From: Hyphomonadaceae bacterium
GTDB lineage: Bacteria; Pseudomonadota; Alphaproteobacteria; Caulobacterales; Aquidulcibacteraceae
Assembly: GCA_016791445.1 (NCBI GenBank)
Contig: JAEUMP010000016.1
Coordinates: forward strand, 124,001 to 188,000
DNA: 64,000 nucleotides
Reading direction: 5' to 3'
Shown in pieces: positions 56,990-64,000 of this stretch. The position numbers and the translations under genes are program-made. Below the pieces are notes generated by a model. That model made no database searches. It saw nothing but the letters and a program-made list of their open reading frames with translations, and was not told the DNA's origin. Numbering within the stretch: the stretch's first letter is position 1; each line of letters opens with the position of its first letter.

Positions 56990-57035
56990 AACTCAACACT
57001 GCGCACTGAGTTTGAGTCACCCGGTGGGACGACTC

Positions 57036-58376
57036 ATGGACGGCATTCGCTCACGCATCACCATCCGCTTGATCGACGCCACGTCGGCGCCGAGCGATGG
57101 CGAACTTCGTATCTGGGACACCGACGTGCGCGGCTTCATGCTCCGCATCGCCAAGAGCGGGCGCAAGACCTATTGCCTCAAATATCGCTACAGCAACCGC
57201 CAGCGCTGGCTCACCATCGGCGAGCATGGCTCGCCGTGGACGCCAGACACTGCGCGCGCCCGCGCGAAAGAAGCGCTCTACCAAGCCAGCCACGGCGAAG
57301 ACCCCCAAGCGGTGAAGGTGGAAACTCGCGCCAAGAGTGGGACGATCAAGGAGCTGTTCGAGCGCTATTTCGTCGAAGGGCGCATCGACAAACCGCTCAA
57401 GCGCGAAAGCTCCTGGAAGGTCGATCGCACCAATTACACGCGCCACATTGAGCCGCTGATCGGCAAACGGATCGCGCGCGAACTGACGCTCTCGGACCTT
57501 TCCCAATGGCAAGCACAAGTCGCTGCTGGGAAAACCTCACTGGACGTGAAGACCCGTAAGCAGGGCCGCGCCATTGTCACAGGTGGGACAGGCGCAGCGG
57601 CACGCTCGATGCGCACGTTATCGGCGATGATGTCTTGGGCCGTCCGCCACGAAATCCTCGATCATAACCCTTGCGGCAAAATCCAGAAGTATCGTGATGA
57701 GCAGCGAGAACGCGCGCTTACCGAAGAGGAAGCCATTCGGCTTTGGACGATGATGGCTGAAGCGGAGAAGGCCTGGGTCATTACCAGGGATTTCGCTGAC
57801 ATCTTCCGCCTGATCATGCTCACCGGCGCGCGTCGGACCGAAATCGTGGCACTGCGTTGGTCGGAAGTAGATTTCGACCGCGCCCGCCTTGTGCTGCCGC
57901 CGGTCCGGACCAAGATGGGCGCACTCAATCGCTCCCGGCACATCGTCCTGTCGGCGCCGGCGCTCGACATCCTGCAAAAGGCAAAGCGACGCGGTGAGCA
58001 TGTCTTCCCATCAAGCGTGGGCGATAAGCCCCTCGTGGGTGTCAATCGCGCCTGGGAAAAGGTGCGCACACTCGCTGGCATCTCCGACGTGCGGCTGCAT
58101 GACCTCCGCCACAGCTTCGCGACCTTCGCCGTCGAGAACGGCGCTTCCCTCTTCCAGGTTGGTCGCGCCTTGGGGCACGCGAAGTCAGTTTCTACGGAAC
58201 GATATGCCCACCCGACCGATGCAGGCGCGCGTGCCATTGCGACGGACGTGGCGGCGCGCTTTGTCCCGCCGGCGGCGCCGCCGGCAAACGACCGCGATTG
58301 CCCCCGCGATATTCAGGCCGAGCTTCCGTTTGATCCTACGACCTCGTCGAAGGAACACCGAACCGTTGGGGGATAG
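57036..58376 (+). CDS. Tyrosine recombinase (integrase) of the island
   Basis: A 446-residue phage-type integrase. An N-terminal arm-binding domain of the DUF4102 type (ELRIWDTDVRGFMLRIAKSG and KTYCLKYRYSNRQRWLTIGE, residues 20-70) is followed by a core-binding SAM-like domain and a catalytic domain. Catalytic residues are the Arg in TGARRTEIVALRW near residue 265, His-x-x-Arg in LHDLRHSFATF near residue 355, the second His in ALGHAKSV near 381 and the Tyr in TERYAHP near 390. The ATG at 57036 was preferred over a TTG at 57012. It lies about 230 bp from the tRNA fragment. Confidence 0.92.
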   Translation: MDGIRSRITIRLIDATSAPSDGELRIWDTDVRGFMLRIAKSGRKTYCLKYRYSNRQRWLTIGEHGSPWTPDTARARAKEALYQASHGEDPQAVKVETRAKSGTIKELFERYFVEGRIDKPLKRESSWKVDRTNYTRHIEPLIGKRIARELTLSDLSQWQAQVAAGKTSLDVKTRKQGRAIVTGGTGAAARSMRTLSAMMSWAVRHEILDHNPCGKIQKYRDEQRERALTEEEAIRLWTMMAEAEKAWVITRDFADIFRLIMLTGARRTEIVALRWSEVDFDRARLVLPPVRTKMGALNRSRHIVLSAPALDILQKAKRRGEHVFPSSVGDKPLVGVNRAWEKVRTLAGISDVRLHDLRHSFATFAVENGASLFQVGRALGHAKSVSTERYAHPTDAGARAIATDVAARFVPPAAPPANDRDCPRDIQAELPFDPTTSSKEHRTVGG

Positions 58377-58466
58377 TGGCTGCCTGGGCTTGGAGCCACT
58401 TGCCTCGCTCCGAGGTTCGAGGTCCGCTCCCGTCGCAGTCATGGGCGCGATTCTAGGACAGGTTCC

Positions 58467-59702
58467 GTGAAGCCGATCACCCTCTTTTATTCGTGGCAGA
58501 GCGACCGAGACGGAAACCTCTGCCGCCACTTCATCGAGAAAGCGCTGGAAACCGCCATGGAGCTACTGACCTCCGAAGGCATCGCGCTCACCATCGACGC
58601 CGACACGCGTAACGTACCGGGCACGCCGCCGATCAACGCCACCATCCTGAAGAAGATCGAGGCCTGCGACGTCTTCCTCGCAGACATGACATTCGTCGCC
58701 GCCACCGAGGGCGGCAAGCTCACGCCCAATCCGAACGTGATGGGTGAATACGGCTACGCGCTGAAGGCTCTCGGCCACGAACGCATCTTGCTGGCCATGA
58801 ACACCGCGTTCGGACCGCCGGAGCAATTGCCATTTGATTTGAAACACCAGCGCTTCCCGCTTCAATACGACGCCGCGGTCAACATCCAGAATGCGCCGCG
58901 CCGTGCGCTTCGGCGAGACTTCGGCCGCAAACTCGCCGACGCGATCATCCCCGTCGCCGCAGCGGCGCTCGCCATGGCGCAACGCACGAACGCCGACACC
59001 GAAGCACGCGCGCGCGAACTCGCCATGGAGCATCGTGCCGCGTTCATGCGCGGCAATACCCCCGCCATCGTCACCCGCCCTTGTCTTTCGATGCAACTCG
59101 CGCCGCTCGCGGCCTTCAGCGGCGTGACGCTGACGCCGCGCAATGTCGCGCCCGTGGTCGAAGCCTTCCTGCCGCCACGCTATCAACGGGCGCGCCAAGG
59201 CGCCGACGAGCGCATGTGGTGGGCGAGCGATCCGCCGCGCCCGGTCACCGGAAAACCTAACCCAGAGGTGGATTGGCTCTTCACCGTGGCGCGACCCGGC
59301 GTGCTGCAGTTTGCGGTCTGCCTGGGGAAGCTGATCGACGACGACCCCAGGATCGCGGTTGAGGGGCTCCAGCTTGAAGCGTGGATCGTGAGGATGGCGG
59401 AGCGCTTGTTGCGTGACGCCGAAGCGCTGGGGCTGCCGGGTCCGGCTGTGATCGATGTGGGCTGCGAAGGCATCGACAACATCGATGTGTTTCCGGGCCG
59501 ACTGAAATCGGTCCGCGTGCAGCGCCAGACGGTGCTGCTCAACGGTCCGATAATCACGCTCGGTGCAACGCCGGTCGCGACTCAATTGCGCGCCGTACTT
59601 GATGATTTCTGGTTGGCGATCGGGCGCGGGGCGGGCTCGCCGTCTTTCCCCGATGATCATTGGCAAGGCTATGATGATCTGCCGGATTACCGGCTGGCCT
59701 AG
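58467..59702 (+). CDS. TIR-like domain protein, candidate defence effector (411 aa)
   Basis: The first ~130 residues form a TIR/nucleosidase-like domain: LFYSWQSDRDGNLC at 6-19, TIDADTRNVPGTPPIN at 42-57, ILKKIEACDVFLADMTF at 60-76 and NPNVMGEYGYAL at 88-99, with Glu94 at the position of a catalytic Glu. Proteins with this FYSWQSD head occur in defence islands, where relatives may degrade NAD or related nucleotides (inference). The remaining ~280 residues are unrecognised and may be the sensor. It is convergent with hipA (6-nt gap). Position next to integrase supports a cargo role. Confidence 0.6.
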   Translation: MKPITLFYSWQSDRDGNLCRHFIEKALETAMELLTSEGIALTIDADTRNVPGTPPINATILKKIEACDVFLADMTFVAATEGGKLTPNPNVMGEYGYALKALGHERILLAMNTAFGPPEQLPFDLKHQRFPLQYDAAVNIQNAPRRALRRDFGRKLADAIIPVAAAALAMAQRTNADTEARARELAMEHRAAFMRGNTPAIVTRPCLSMQLAPLAAFSGVTLTPRNVAPVVEAFLPPRYQRARQGADERMWWASDPPRPVTGKPNPEVDWLFTVARPGVLQFAVCLGKLIDDDPRIAVEGLQLEAWIVRMAERLLRDAEALGLPGPAVIDVGCEGIDNIDVFPGRLKSVRVQRQTVLLNGPIITLGATPVATQLRAVLDDFWLAIGRGAGSPSFPDDHWQGYDDLPDYRLA

Positions 59703-59708
59703 CGCCGA

Positions 59709-61007
59709 TCAGGCGTTGCTGGCGGCCGCGGCATGTTCGGCGCCGTAGATCGCTTCTAGGCCTTTGCAGCGCGCCGCCAGTTCTTTGACTAAGCGATCGA
59801 GTGTCTCGTTGCGCAAGCCTTGCTCGCGCAATTCATCCACGAGCACACGGGCTTCATCGGGCGCGCGCGCGATAATATCGCGAATGTGACCGAGCGCGCG
59901 ATCGGCGTTGAATCCGACATCCGCGGACAAGGCCTCCCAATGGCGCGGGATGATTTCTTTTAAGACCCGATGGCCATCGATGCCCATCGCCAGTGACGAT
60001 TCGCGGCGGTCTGCCGCGTATGGCAAATCGCTGATCACATCGTAGAGCGGCGCCAAGCGGAAGGCGCCGCCGGGGGCGTAGACGATAGAATAGTTGCGCG
60101 CGTGCGCATCGGTCCCGGCGATAATAAAGTTCAGCGCTTGCGCGCGCATGAAGCGGTCGCGGTCGACATTTGGGTTCGCGGAATCCAACAACAGCGCCAT
60201 GATGTGCTTGATGGTAGGCCCACCGTCCGACTGATATTTGCGCAATGGGTTCACGCCCAGCGCCTGGCACATGTCCTCCTGGTGGACACGGAAGACACCT
60301 TGCGTGCGCCGCAGTCGGTCATAGCGCTCGACGATGATCACCGGCACATCGCCGATCATCTCGACGACGGAAATGGCGGCGGCCATATCGAGGCGGCGCG
60401 CAAGTTCAAGGCAGAAGTGTTCATTTGATGCGATGTGGCGAATGCGGCCGGTCTCGGGCTTAAAGATGTGCGTAGTGGGCGTGCGGCCCTGCGGCACCGC
60501 CCAGCTGTTCTTGATCTTGTAGAGCGCGGTTTTCGCTTGGGCGCCGGCCAAACTGAACTGGCCATTGTCTTCGGCCAAACGCCCGGCGCCGGGGTCGTTC
60601 TTCAGCGCCAGCATACGCGCCTCTAGCTCCTTGCGCGTCAGCCGTTTCACATTTTCCCGGCCCGCGAGTTCGACATCGGGCGGCACCAATTGCACAGCAC
60701 CGGGGCAATCCTCCCCCACCGCCGCCAGCAGCGCGAACGGGTTGCGCGCAGACACCTGAAAGCGCCTGGCCCATTCGTCGAGGATCCGCTCATTATCCGG
60801 AAGCAACCCCCACATGAAATTTGTGATCGGCCGCACGCCATGGCGCTGTTGCTGCAGCGGCATCGAGCGCGACAGCGGAATGTGACGCGGGTTGCGCTGC
60901 CAGTCGGCGAGGTACTCGAAGCGGTAGCTGCCATTGGGGCGCTGTGTCAGCTGACCAACATCCTTGTCGGTCAGCAGCACGCGCAAGGTTTTTCCGTTGG
61001 CGCTCAT
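59709..61007 (-). CDS. hipA: HipA-type toxin kinase
   Basis: A serine/threonine kinase toxin; E. coli HipA phosphorylates glutamyl-tRNA synthetase. The 432-residue protein has an N-terminal subdomain, GQFSLAGAQAKTALYKI near residue 150, HIFKPETGRIRHIASNEHF near residue 180, IVERYDR and FRVHQEDMCQALG near residue 240. The catalytic loop GTDAHARNYSIVY is near residue 297 and the Mg-binding LAPLYDVISDLPYA near residue 322. All main HipA motifs are intact, so it is probably active. It starts inside the hipB stop codon (ATGA), so translation is coupled. Confidence 0.93.
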   Translation of the reverse strand: MSANGKTLRVLLTDKDVGQLTQRPNGSYRFEYLADWQRNPRHIPLSRSMPLQQQRHGVRPITNFMWGLLPDNERILDEWARRFQVSARNPFALLAAVGEDCPGAVQLVPPDVELAGRENVKRLTRKELEARMLALKNDPGAGRLAEDNGQFSLAGAQAKTALYKIKNSWAVPQGRTPTTHIFKPETGRIRHIASNEHFCLELARRLDMAAAISVVEMIGDVPVIIVERYDRLRRTQGVFRVHQEDMCQALGVNPLRKYQSDGGPTIKHIMALLLDSANPNVDRDRFMRAQALNFIIAGTDAHARNYSIVYAPGGAFRLAPLYDVISDLPYAADRRESSLAMGIDGHRVLKEIIPRHWEALSADVGFNADRALGHIRDIIARAPDEARVLVDELREQGLRNETLDRLVKELAARCKGLEAIYGAEHAAAASNA

Positions 61008-61303
61008 TTGCGCTTCAATCCGGTATTGGCGATGGCATCGAGATCGACGAAATCATCTTCCGCCTTGCGTTGGGGCGGTGGCGGGGATGGCGGCGCCTCA
61101 CCGCCAAGCGTCAGCGGCAAATCAAGCGCCTTAAGCATCTGGAAGATGAGTCCAATGCTGGCGCCGGGATAACCCTTTTCCACCTTGGAGATCGCGGACT
61201 GGGTGACGTTGATCTCATCGGCCAGCCCACGCTGAGTCTGCCCGCGGGCGATGCGCCGCTCGCGCAGCACAGCGCCCAATTCTCGTACGCTCTTGGCCTG
61301 CAT
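61004..61303 (-). CDS. hipB: HipB-type antitoxin/repressor
   Basis: A 99-residue XRE-family helix-turn-helix protein: LGAVLRERRIARGQTQRGLA near residue 9, ADEINVTQSAISKVEKGYPG near residue 28. A Pro/charged tail follows (APPSPPPPQRKAEDDFVDLD). It should neutralise HipA and bind palindromic operators, as E. coli HipB does. Its start lies 5 nt from the first of five operator-like palindromes (61309-61423). It precedes hipA in the usual antitoxin-toxin order. Confidence 0.93.
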   Translation of the reverse strand: MQAKSVRELGAVLRERRIARGQTQRGLADEINVTQSAISKVEKGYPGASIGLIFQMLKALDLPLTLGGEAPPSPPPPQRKAEDDFVDLDAIANTGLKRK

Positions 61304-61308
61304 GGCTC

Positions 61309-61423
61309 ATTCCTATCAGGAATTTTCTAATTTATGCCTATCAGGAATTTCTTACAAGATGCCTGACAGGAATAATCTACAACATTCCCATTGGGAATAT
61401 ACAGAAACATTCCCGCCGGGAAT
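61309..61423. promoter_or_regulatory. Five HipB-type operators at exact 25-bp spacing
   Basis: Palindromes of the form ATtCC-N5-GGAAT lie at 61309-61323 (spacer TATCA), 61334-61348 (TATCA), 61359-61373 (TGACA), 61384-61398 (CATTG) and 61409-61423 (CGCCG). Copies 1, 4 and 5 are perfect; copies 2 and 3 have ATGCC in the left arm. Start-to-start distance is 25 bp in all four steps. The array fills the divergent intergenic region between hipB and the defence operon. HipB binding is inferred from position and from the E. coli precedent of TATCC-N8-GGATA-like repeats. Confidence 0.85.
61329..61357 (-). promoter_or_regulatory. Likely hipBA promoter
   Basis: On the minus strand TTGTAA (61352-61357) and TAAATT (61329-61334) are separated by 17 bp, close to a sigma70-type -35/-10 pair. 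The second operator palindrome (61334-61348) lies in the spacer, so repressor binding would block polymerase. Inference from position and consensus. Confidence 0.5.
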
Positions 61424-61475
61424 ATATCGATAGCCAGACTCGGCGTAAAAGGTGCCTACACGAAGGGCATTAGCC

Positions 61476-62294
61476 ATGAGCGCCTCGATCGGACGAATTC
61501 AAACGGACGCGGACTATGAAATCGCGCTGCTGCACGAGGCGCACGAAGCGCTCGCCGACATCATCACGCCAAAACTCTACAAAATCGCAGGACCGGCGGG
61601 CGACCAACAGATTGCCTTCCACACCGCCGAGCATTTTGAACTTTTCCTGGTCCGGCTCGTCGAATTGTTTTCCGCGGGCGCGCCAATCGGAGGTCAGACG
61701 CGGAACGTCCAATTGATCGAAGGATTGGCGTGGTTGGCGGCAACGCATCCGGCAGAAGCCGCGCACTGTGGCCTAGGCGAAACGGTCGCCACCCTGCAAA
61801 GCTGGGCGGGCGAGGAAACCGATGCCGAGTTCTGGTGTGGCGAACTTGGCCTTCAGATCAAGCTCCGGCTGAGCCGCCGCGACATTATTTGGTTTGCCGC
61901 GAACTGCGCCAAGCACGGGTTGTTGCGTCTCTCCGTGGTGTTGGAAAAGCTTGAGCGGAAGCTCAACGCGAACGGGGTCAGCGTGCCGCCGGCGGACATC
62001 GTCGCGATCTTGCCTGACCTGCGCCAGGAGGCGACCAATCGTGTGGAATATCATGCAAGCTATCTGGTCGAGATGATCGGACACGTGTTCGTGGCGCTCA
62101 ACCGCATCGCTTGGCGCCGCTTCAAGGCAAACCCCACCAACGAGACGCGCAAGATGACCATGCCCGTCGGCGTCTCCTCGGATGTGTTCCGCAATCTCTA
62201 CGGCTCATTCCTGGTATTCAAACGCTACGACGAGGCGACCAGGATCACTACCTACATTCCGCAGACCACACGTTACTTACGAATGCGCTTTTGA
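61476..62294 (+). CDS. Unrecognised helical protein upstream of the STAND gene (272 aa)
   Basis: No family recognised. It is a soluble, mostly alpha-helical protein (MSASIGRIQTDADYEIALLH, then EAHEALADIITPKLYKIAGP, AEHFELFLVRLVELFSAG and SVVLEKLERKLNANGVSV). There are no membrane segments and no obvious catalytic motif. The ATG at 61476 has GAAGGG 8 nt upstream; a GTG at 61452 is less likely. Its stop codon overlaps the start of the STAND gene by one base (TGATG), so the two are translationally coupled and probably act together, for example as partner, inhibitor or accessory sensor (inference). Confidence 0.7.
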   Translation: MSASIGRIQTDADYEIALLHEAHEALADIITPKLYKIAGPAGDQQIAFHTAEHFELFLVRLVELFSAGAPIGGQTRNVQLIEGLAWLAATHPAEAAHCGLGETVATLQSWAGEETDAEFWCGELGLQIKLRLSRRDIIWFAANCAKHGLLRLSVVLEKLERKLNANGVSVPPADIVAILPDLRQEATNRVEYHASYLVEMIGHVFVALNRIAWRRFKANPTNETRKMTMPVGVSSDVFRNLYGSFLVFKRYDEATRITTYIPQTTRYLRMRF

Positions 62295-64000
62295 TGACCG
62301 GTCAGACCAAACCGATACCGCCCGGCGAAGGCGAACGGCGCGCCCAGCGTGGGTACGTGCCGCAATACGATCTTGCCGCGCACTTGATCTATTTCGCGAT
62401 GGCGGCGGGAAGATTGCGTTGGATTGGCGTCGCTGATCGCGGCGCAGGTTCGTTCGACGATATCGTTCTGGGTCTCGCCGATCGCACCAAGGCCTATCAG
62501 GTGAAGTCGAGCGGCACGCCTGAACCATTCACCGTCTCCACAGCGCTCACCGGCGCCGCGAAAATCCTGGCGCGGATGATCGATGCGCGCGCCAAGCTGG
62601 CGCCGATCGGTGGCGTCATTGAGACCATCTTCGTCACCGACGATTATCCGCGCCTCGATGACAATGTGGGCACCGCCGACAAGCCCGTCTCATCGGCGGC
62701 CTTTGTACGCGCGCTCGAAGCGCACCGCGAGAGCTGGACGCTCGATGACTGGCTCGCCTCAGCGTTCGCGCCACTCATCACAACGCTAAAGAGCGCATCA
62801 CAGCTCGACGACGCGGCCTTCGCCGCGCTCTTGCGCGGAATGCAGTTTAACGTCGGCGTGCAACCGCCCGGCGCGAACTCGCCGCAAGATCAACGGCGCA
62901 TCGGCCAGATCGCGGCACTGTTGCCACGCTTGGCAGCCGACCGCGCCGACCAGGATCGTTGGGCGCTCGATGAACTGCTGACGCGCTTGAATTGGCGCGA
63001 TGCATTCGCGTTGCGTCACGAGCATGCGTTTCCGGTCGATGCGCTCTATCAATCCAACCAAAGCACGCAGCGTGCGTTACTAGAGGCGCTCGGACGCATC
63101 GAGAGCGGGTATTGCGCGCTGGTAGGCGCGCCGGGCAGCGGAAAGTCCACGCTGCTTGCGGCCGGGCTCTTGCCCGCGCCGCGCGCGTTGATCGCGCGCT
63201 ATCTCGCTTTCCTCCCCAATGAAGGCCACGGGCTGGGGCGCGCGGAAGCGGAGAATTTTCTTCAAGAGGTGGTTAAGCAGCTCAAACAACAAGACCTAGG
63301 CCAGCAGATCATTCCCGGGGTCGAATTGAGCGAATTGCAGCAGCAGTTCGCAACCCTGCTCCAGCAAGCAGCTCAGCGTTACGCCGCGGATGGCGTCAAG
63401 ACGCTGATCGTCGTCGATGGGTTAGACCACGTCCCGCGCGAAGAGCGGCCGGCGCGCTCGTTCCTATCTGAGCTGCCGCTTCCCCATGCCGTGCCGAAGG
63501 GCGTTGTGTTTGTGCTCGGCACACAAAAACTCGACTTGGATGGTATGGCGCCCGCCGTTCGCGATCAGGCAGGCACCGATGATCGCCGCGTGGAGATGTC
63601 GGCTCTCCCGCCCGAGGCCGTGGCTAAGCTGGCGAACGCCGCGCGCGTTCCCGCCGATGTTGACCGCGTCAAACTCTTTGAGCGGACGCTCGGCCATCCG
63701 TTGTCGGTGCGCTACGCGGTTGAGCGCCTGACCGCGCTTTCGACAGAAGCTGAGCGGCGTGACTGGCTCAGCAACGGTCCAGCCTTCGGCGGCGACGTCG
63801 AGACCTATTATTCCAGCGTTTGGCACGAGCTTGAAGACAAGGCTGATGCGCGCACCGCGCTTGCCTATTTAGCCCTGATCGATGGCGCCATCGCCTCCTC
63901 CGGCATGGATGCGTTGGTCGGGGCCGCCGCGACCGACGCTGCTGATGCCGCCGCTCGGCACTTGATCGCCCGCGACCGCGCAGGCGCGTGGTCCATTTTT
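62294..64000 (+). CDS. Nuclease-STAND NTPase, Avs-like defence protein (first 569 residues; continues past the window)
   Basis: The frame is open from 62294 to the end of the window. The N-terminal ~75 residues (YVPQYDLAAHLIYFAMAAGR, then FDDIVLGLADRTKAYQVKSS) have the Asp55/Asp56 and Gln69-Val-Lys71 pattern of PD-(D/E)xK-type nucleases like the DUF4297/Cap4 head. A STAND/NACHT-type NTPase core follows: Walker A VGAPGSGKSTLL (Lys284), Walker B TLIVVDGLDHV (Asp375). A helical arm region follows. In Avs proteins a C-terminal sensor of phage proteins comes next; here it is outside the window. Function in anti-phage abortive defence is inference. Confidence 0.8.
   Translation, partial: MTGQTKPIPPGEGERRAQRGYVPQYDLAAHLIYFAMAAGRLRWIGVADRGAGSFDDIVLGLADRTKAYQVKSSGTPEPFTVSTALTGAAKILARMIDARAKLAPIGGVIETIFVTDDYPRLDDNVGTADKPVSSAAFVRALEAHRESWTLDDWLASAFAPLITTLKSASQLDDAAFAALLRGMQFNVGVQPPGANSPQDQRRIGQIAALLPRLAADRADQDRWALDELLTRLNWRDAFALRHEHAFPVDALYQSNQSTQRALLEALGRIESGYCALVGAPGSGKSTLLAAGLLPAPRALIARYLAFLPNEGHGLGRAEAENFLQEVVKQLKQQDLGQQIIPGVELSELQQQFATLLQQAAQRYAADGVKTLIVVDGLDHVPREERPARSFLSELPLPHAVPKGVVFVLGTQKLDLDGMAPAVRDQAGTDDRRVEMSALPPEAVAKLANAARVPADVDRVKLFERTLGHPLSVRYAVERLTALSTEAERRDWLSNGPAFGGDVETYYSSVWHELEDKADARTALAYLALIDGAIASSGMDALVGAAATDAADAAARHLIARDRAGAWSIF

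Follow-up and report, generated by a model that had tools for sequence, protein, structure and literature searches.

The window, a stretch of 64,000 nucleotides corresponding to positions 124001-188000 of contig C3, ends inside a large plus-strand gene that opens with an ATG at 62294 and stays open to the window edge (62294..64000, residues 1-569). The remainder lies at contig C3 188001-192248, and the complete gene, referred to as the nuclease-STAND gene herein, spans contig C3 186294-192248 (L002:6295-12249) and encodes 1,984 aa. The initial annotation, which had described a gene truncated by the window edge, was therefore right on this point. The ATG shares one base with the TGA of the preceding gene (62292-62294), which encodes a 272-aa protein on the plus strand at 61476..62294, with a GTG start at 61452 also possible. 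The region before the nuclease-STAND gene (57012-62294) additionally contains a tyrosine integrase gene (PF00589, 2e-21), a gene whose 411-aa product matches a TIR-like family weakly (PF10137, E 0.037), and a HipA/HipB pair on the minus strand, while a DUF3363 relaxase-like gene follows downstream (L002:12589-14598). Since an integrase precedes it and a relaxase-like gene follows it, the nuclease-STAND gene looks like mobile cargo, and the locus is probably a mobile island.

The initial annotation had proposed a short nuclease-like head with an Asp-Asp ... Gln-Val-Lys motif, followed by a linker of about 150 residues. To define conserved residues, we aligned 73 full-length rows (72 relatives and the window protein, with a few near-copies among them), which remained after 27 matches of 99, being shorter or broken, were removed. 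E14 (62333..62335, plus strand), Q24, D55, D56, and K71 were identical in all 73 rows and Q69 in 72, showing that the motif is genuine and not a chance resemblance. Based on the PD-(D/E)XK fold, Asp55-Asp56 (62456..62461, plus strand) and the Q-x-K motif Gln69-Val70-Lys71 (62498..62506, plus strand) are predicted to be catalytic.

An AlphaFold2 model of residues 1-252, built on 63 heads taken from the window gene and from the loci of its relatives, had a mean pLDDT of 92.6. The best four Foldseek matches of this model were HamA (8zue, 3.4e-6), two Cap4 entries (among them 7yia, 1.1e-5), and Avs3 (8dgc_A, 1.4e-5). Structural alignment with VIA-align likewise gave Cap4 at Z 13.6 (196 residues), Avs3 at Z 13.0 (202 residues, model residues 9-235), and HamA at Z 12.5; the best match beyond the Cap4, Avs3, HamA, Lamassu, and HerA-DUF group was a restriction enzyme at Z 7.4. 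The fold search that had been suggested as a check on the head thus returned a nuclease fold and not a non-nuclease family. Because the AlphaFold model and the Foldseek and VIA matches agree on one domain of ∼240 residues, residues 1-240 (62294..63013, plus strand) are predicted to be a single Cap4-type PD-(D/E)XK nuclease domain. The head is consequently as long as that of Avs3 and not short, and the stretch taken for a linker is part of it. By sequence, the window head had no Pfam family match at E 1, and the Pfam Cap4_nuclease model (PF14130) matched two of 70 heads, that of the window not among them, with a best E of 6.5e-4. The PADLOC CBASS endonuclease 'Effector' model matched 21 of the 70 and SAVED_PDDEXK matched 11, and an hmmsearch with a profile of the heads reached HamA at an E of only 0.088. 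Since sequence libraries detect the head so faintly, its assignment as a nuclease depends on the fold together with the conserved residues.

The NTPase core begins within the window (63083..64000, plus strand) and continues beyond it. Its Walker A P-loop (G278-T286; 63125..63151, plus strand) is as conserved as the head motifs, and a Walker-B-like strand with a DGLDH motif follows at residues 371-379 (63404..63430, plus strand), D375-H379 being present in 73 of 73 rows. The Pfam nSTAND1 model matched above its cut-off (29.7 versus 27.1 bits). The PADLOC Avs1b model matched residues 264-745 at an E of 2e-28, and the NCBIfam Avs1b model scored 94.4 bits, far below its cut-off of 1500. No other Avs model matched at E 10 in PADLOC or NCBIfam, either of which may lack an Avs3 model; the NCBIfam models for Avs2 (NF041813), Avs4 (NF041815), and Avs5 (NF041814) gave no match at the gene. 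When nine relatives were aligned with two Avs1b proteins by hhalign, the probability was 99.9% with an E of 3.8e-35, and the match ran from residue ∼254 to 970 or beyond, past the NTPase and into the helical solenoid that follows it. When a profile of the whole family was searched against PDB sequences, most matches were P-loop ATPases, and Avs entries were absent. In a quick tree built on the NTPase region with rows from the family and Avs1b, three Avs1b proteins and the 73 family rows were split by a branch with an SH-aLRT of 100, so the family is not nested within the sampled Avs1b. Judged by these sequence comparisons, the core is a STAND NTPase related to Avs1b.

We predicted the structure of residues 785-1984 from 51 rows (mean pLDDT 87.9, pTM 0.83) and obtained a run of ∼50 helices that leads into an alpha/beta domain at the end. 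Foldseek matched this model to Avs3 at 1.8e-9 and 3.2e-9, the next and unrelated match being at 2.6e-3. VIA aligned 904 residues to Avs3 residues 806-2080 with a Z of 14.1 and an rmsd of 7.3 Å, the next match having a Z of 10.0. As solenoids match widely and unrelated helical models may reach Z 13, we placed weight on the gap to the next match and on the collinearity with the head match. The modelled C-terminal part is thus an Avs3-like helical solenoid plus end domain, a putative sensor. The initial annotation had expected a C-terminal sensor region once the contig was extended, and one was found; the order it compared with Avs proteins, a nuclease head, a STAND core, and a C-terminal sensor, is borne out as well.

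Avs3 is the only Avs protein to appear in the structure matches, and its solved structure aligns collinearly with the head as well as with the C-terminal 1,200 residues. This raises the question of whether the protein is simply a very divergent Avs3, that is, a Cap4-headed terminase sensor and not a separate lineage. We regard that reading as unlikely, although it deserves real weight, since the core points to Avs1b alone among the Avs models searched, with the proviso given above on Avs3 models. If the core is indeed Avs1-like and both ends Avs3-like, the family would link two Avs types.

The 272-aa protein encoded upstream had been described in the initial annotation as a dedicated partner with no recognisable domain. 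It is adjacent, its gene overlaps the nuclease-STAND gene, and it has no Pfam, PADLOC, or NCBIfam match; its dedication, by contrast, did not hold. The overlap of stop and start suggests translational coupling and, together with the lack of a known domain, would fit a true partner (a sensor, adaptor, or inhibitor) in a two-gene system unlike the solo Avs proteins. However, phmmer --max of the protein against all ORFs of 101 loci found no credible homologue at the 92 loci with STAND relatives (L007-L012, L014-L016, and L019-L101, nine of which have less than 700 nt of upstream sequence). These include the locus of the closest relative (L019, with 81% identity across its best segment), where a homologue is absent from the 1.6 kb upstream. 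The search matched the window's own copies, L013, L006 weakly (0.003), and L070 at chance level (0.7), and neither L013 nor L006 carries a STAND relative. Relatives of the upstream protein instead occur in five Rhizobiaceae plasmids that lack the STAND gene, an integrase adjoining in four of four examined; a further, marginal match (E 8.5e-4) lies in genome G088. Moreover, the genes upstream of other STAND relatives vary and encode DUF5677, DUF4365, or hypothetical proteins. We therefore consider a partner role improbable and rejected a dedicated family partner. The gene encoding it is probably a passenger, independent of the system, whose translation has come to be coupled at this locus.

The Rhizobiaceae plasmids (L132, L133, L134, and L013) share a cassette of a divergent ∼208-aa gene, the upstream-protein relative, and an integrase on the opposite strand. 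Two candidate relationships of the upstream protein, to DUF5677 and to the protein encoded upstream of the Salmonella relative, were rejected as neither gave a meaningful alignment. Nothing was found when it was searched against phage records and viral contigs.

A profile scan of genome contigs from 84,980 species genomes confirmed 239 of 378 candidate stretches as relatives of the nuclease-STAND protein. We kept the best 80 of the 239, ranked by match to the window protein, and hence close, full-length relatives are over-represented in the sample. Across genome contigs and plasmid records, the family occurs in several proteobacterial classes, in Chloroflexota, Planctomycetota, Myxococcota, and Verrucomicrobiota, on an actinobacterial plasmid, and in others. 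At the class level, one of 385 genomes was positive, namely the genome of the window itself, and the other 384 were negative. Plasmid records yielded 18 matches, 15 of which cover at least one third of the query; the other three were two Avs1b proteins (Cupriavidus) and a serine protease beside avs1a and avs1c. Three loci on viral contigs were found by scanning with the family profile, and a single-sequence scan of viral contigs and phage records found no match. A census with the Avs1b model was left out of these counts because its matches were for the most part short and weak and fell in the protease end of the model, the first 100-odd positions. Of 5,426 E. coli genomes, 11 carry a near-identical copy of the Salmonella plasmid gene (nine chromosomal, two plasmid); these copies are full-length and annotated 'ATP-binding protein', and no named record examined carried a more specific label. 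The family is thus probably a common immune receptor missed by the annotation libraries used here, and the E. coli and Salmonella plasmid copies, which show ∼30% identity to the window protein across 98% of the query, make laboratory testing easy.

Some relatives are found in unusual settings or are damaged. The 81%-identical relative in L019:1-8710 comes from a contig of 8.7 kb whose bin is assigned to a Woesearchaeota archaeon and on which fragments resembling integrases and transposases were seen by eye; either mis-binning or recent transfer could account for this. The relative on a Vibrio cholerae plasmid (L016:7983-16168) is broken by IS3 and IS21 elements, and several further relatives are frameshifted.

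We then compared the genes around the relatives with controls, using 110 of 179 neighbour ORFs of 200-1500 aa and 109 of 171 ORFs from twenty preset stretches. At E 1e-15, PADLOC matched 71 families in the neighbours versus 24 in the controls, a contrast that is qualitative because the tally counts families and one protein can match many. Twenty of the 24 control families were GajB/UvrD-like helicase models, and two of the neighbour loci, L024 and L101, have neighbours in common. Among the 25 neighbour families shown were Mza, BovA, DRT nitrilase RT, restriction-modification, DrmMII, Qat, Tmn, PD-T7-1, and PD-T4-5, and genes annotated as Dsr1, Lit, and AbiE lie near relatives in named plasmids. 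For instance, the relative on Nitrosococcus halophilus plasmid pNHAL01 (L009:285-10768) is near a gene annotated Dsr1. STAND NTPases also act as regulators, and the protein could in principle be a regulator or cell-death switch with no role in defence. We judge this very improbable, given a nuclease head with invariant predicted catalytic residues, a patchy distribution (one of 385 class genomes), plasmid and mobile contexts, and defence genes as neighbours.

Avs1c was found beside none of the relative loci. Only one relative, that of L060, has an Avs1a-type MBL gene nearby, and this gene forms a pair with one for a CHAT protease. There, the MBL nuclease gene and then the CHAT (caspase-like) gene, which matches PADLOC BovA at 1.5e-150, are located upstream of a frameshifted relative (L060:669-3899). 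The pair resembles the recently described caspase-nuclease (canu) loci (PMC12799240).

Taken together, the fold of the head, the relationships of the core, and the C-terminal model suggest an NLR-like anti-phage sensor that consists of one protein and has the Avs architecture, and we hold the mechanism as a whole, drawn by analogy with characterized Avs proteins, to be likely. By comparison with Avs3 and Avs1-4, the protein would be an inactive monomer in the uninfected cell. Upon infection, its C-terminal solenoid would bind a conserved phage protein, for which the terminase large subunit or the portal is our best guess, offered tentatively and with the odds somewhat against it. ATP-dependent oligomerisation would then bring the Cap4 heads together, and the assembled heads would cleave double-stranded DNA, stopping the infection but sacrificing the cell. 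This outline follows the Avs1-4 systems, in which nuclease effectors cut phage and host DNA after terminase or portal is sensed (PMC12931631). The nuclease would be carried in cis and need no partner, as opposed to the Avs1 protease head that unlocks a separate MBL pro-nuclease. It is conceivable, with a chance that we put a little under even, that these genes form a large Avs lineage, as yet unnamed, whose STAND sensor is of the Avs1b type, comes with a Cap4 DNA nuclease of its own, and activates it directly in cis from one gene. If the in-cis reading is true, one sensor chassis would serve two unrelated effector logics, and direct activation would stand in place of the two-step Avs1 relay. 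The family also allows a direct test of whether STAND sensors can swap protease-relay and nuclease-in-cis outputs.

Among known systems, the protein shares with Avs3 (8dgc, terminase-bound) a Cap4-type head and a C-terminal solenoid plus end domain in collinear order within ∼2,000 aa. It differs from Avs3 in sequence: the head is 13-15% identical and the C-terminal part 10-12%, and no Avs3 sequence model was matched, the content of the libraries in such models being uncertain. Its STAND core and the initial part of its solenoid are homologous to Avs1b, but the trypsin-like protease head is absent; a Cap4-type nuclease stands in its place and the Avs1b match begins at residue 264. The Avs1 protease acts by cleaving an MBL nuclease that is gated (PMC12799240). 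The window locus has neither an Avs1a nor an Avs1c gene. The nuclease fold is also that of the CBASS effector Cap4 (7yib and 6vm6, Z 13.6 and 10.5), but no SAVED domain was seen, and the STAND sensor replaces the cyclic-nucleotide sensor. HamA of Hachiman (8zue), LmuA of Lamassu, and the DUF4297-HerA nucleases have the same fold (Z 10.9-12.5). These nucleases belong to systems of several genes, in which their partners are a helicase, SMC, or HerA. A literature search covering titles and abstract openings, with the primary Avs papers outside its coverage, turned up no named family built in this way. Heads are swapped in the published Avs phylogenies, in which the clade may already be present without a name. 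The initial annotation had suspected an undescribed Avs type, citing the short head and dedicated partner; those two grounds fell away, while no curated model tested names the protein. With a STAND core, an N-terminal effector domain, and a C-terminal helical-repeat region, it has the features of Avs proteins in the broad sense. The nuclease-STAND family is best read as an unnamed variant of the Avs kind, claimed by no numbered Avs type with a tested model.
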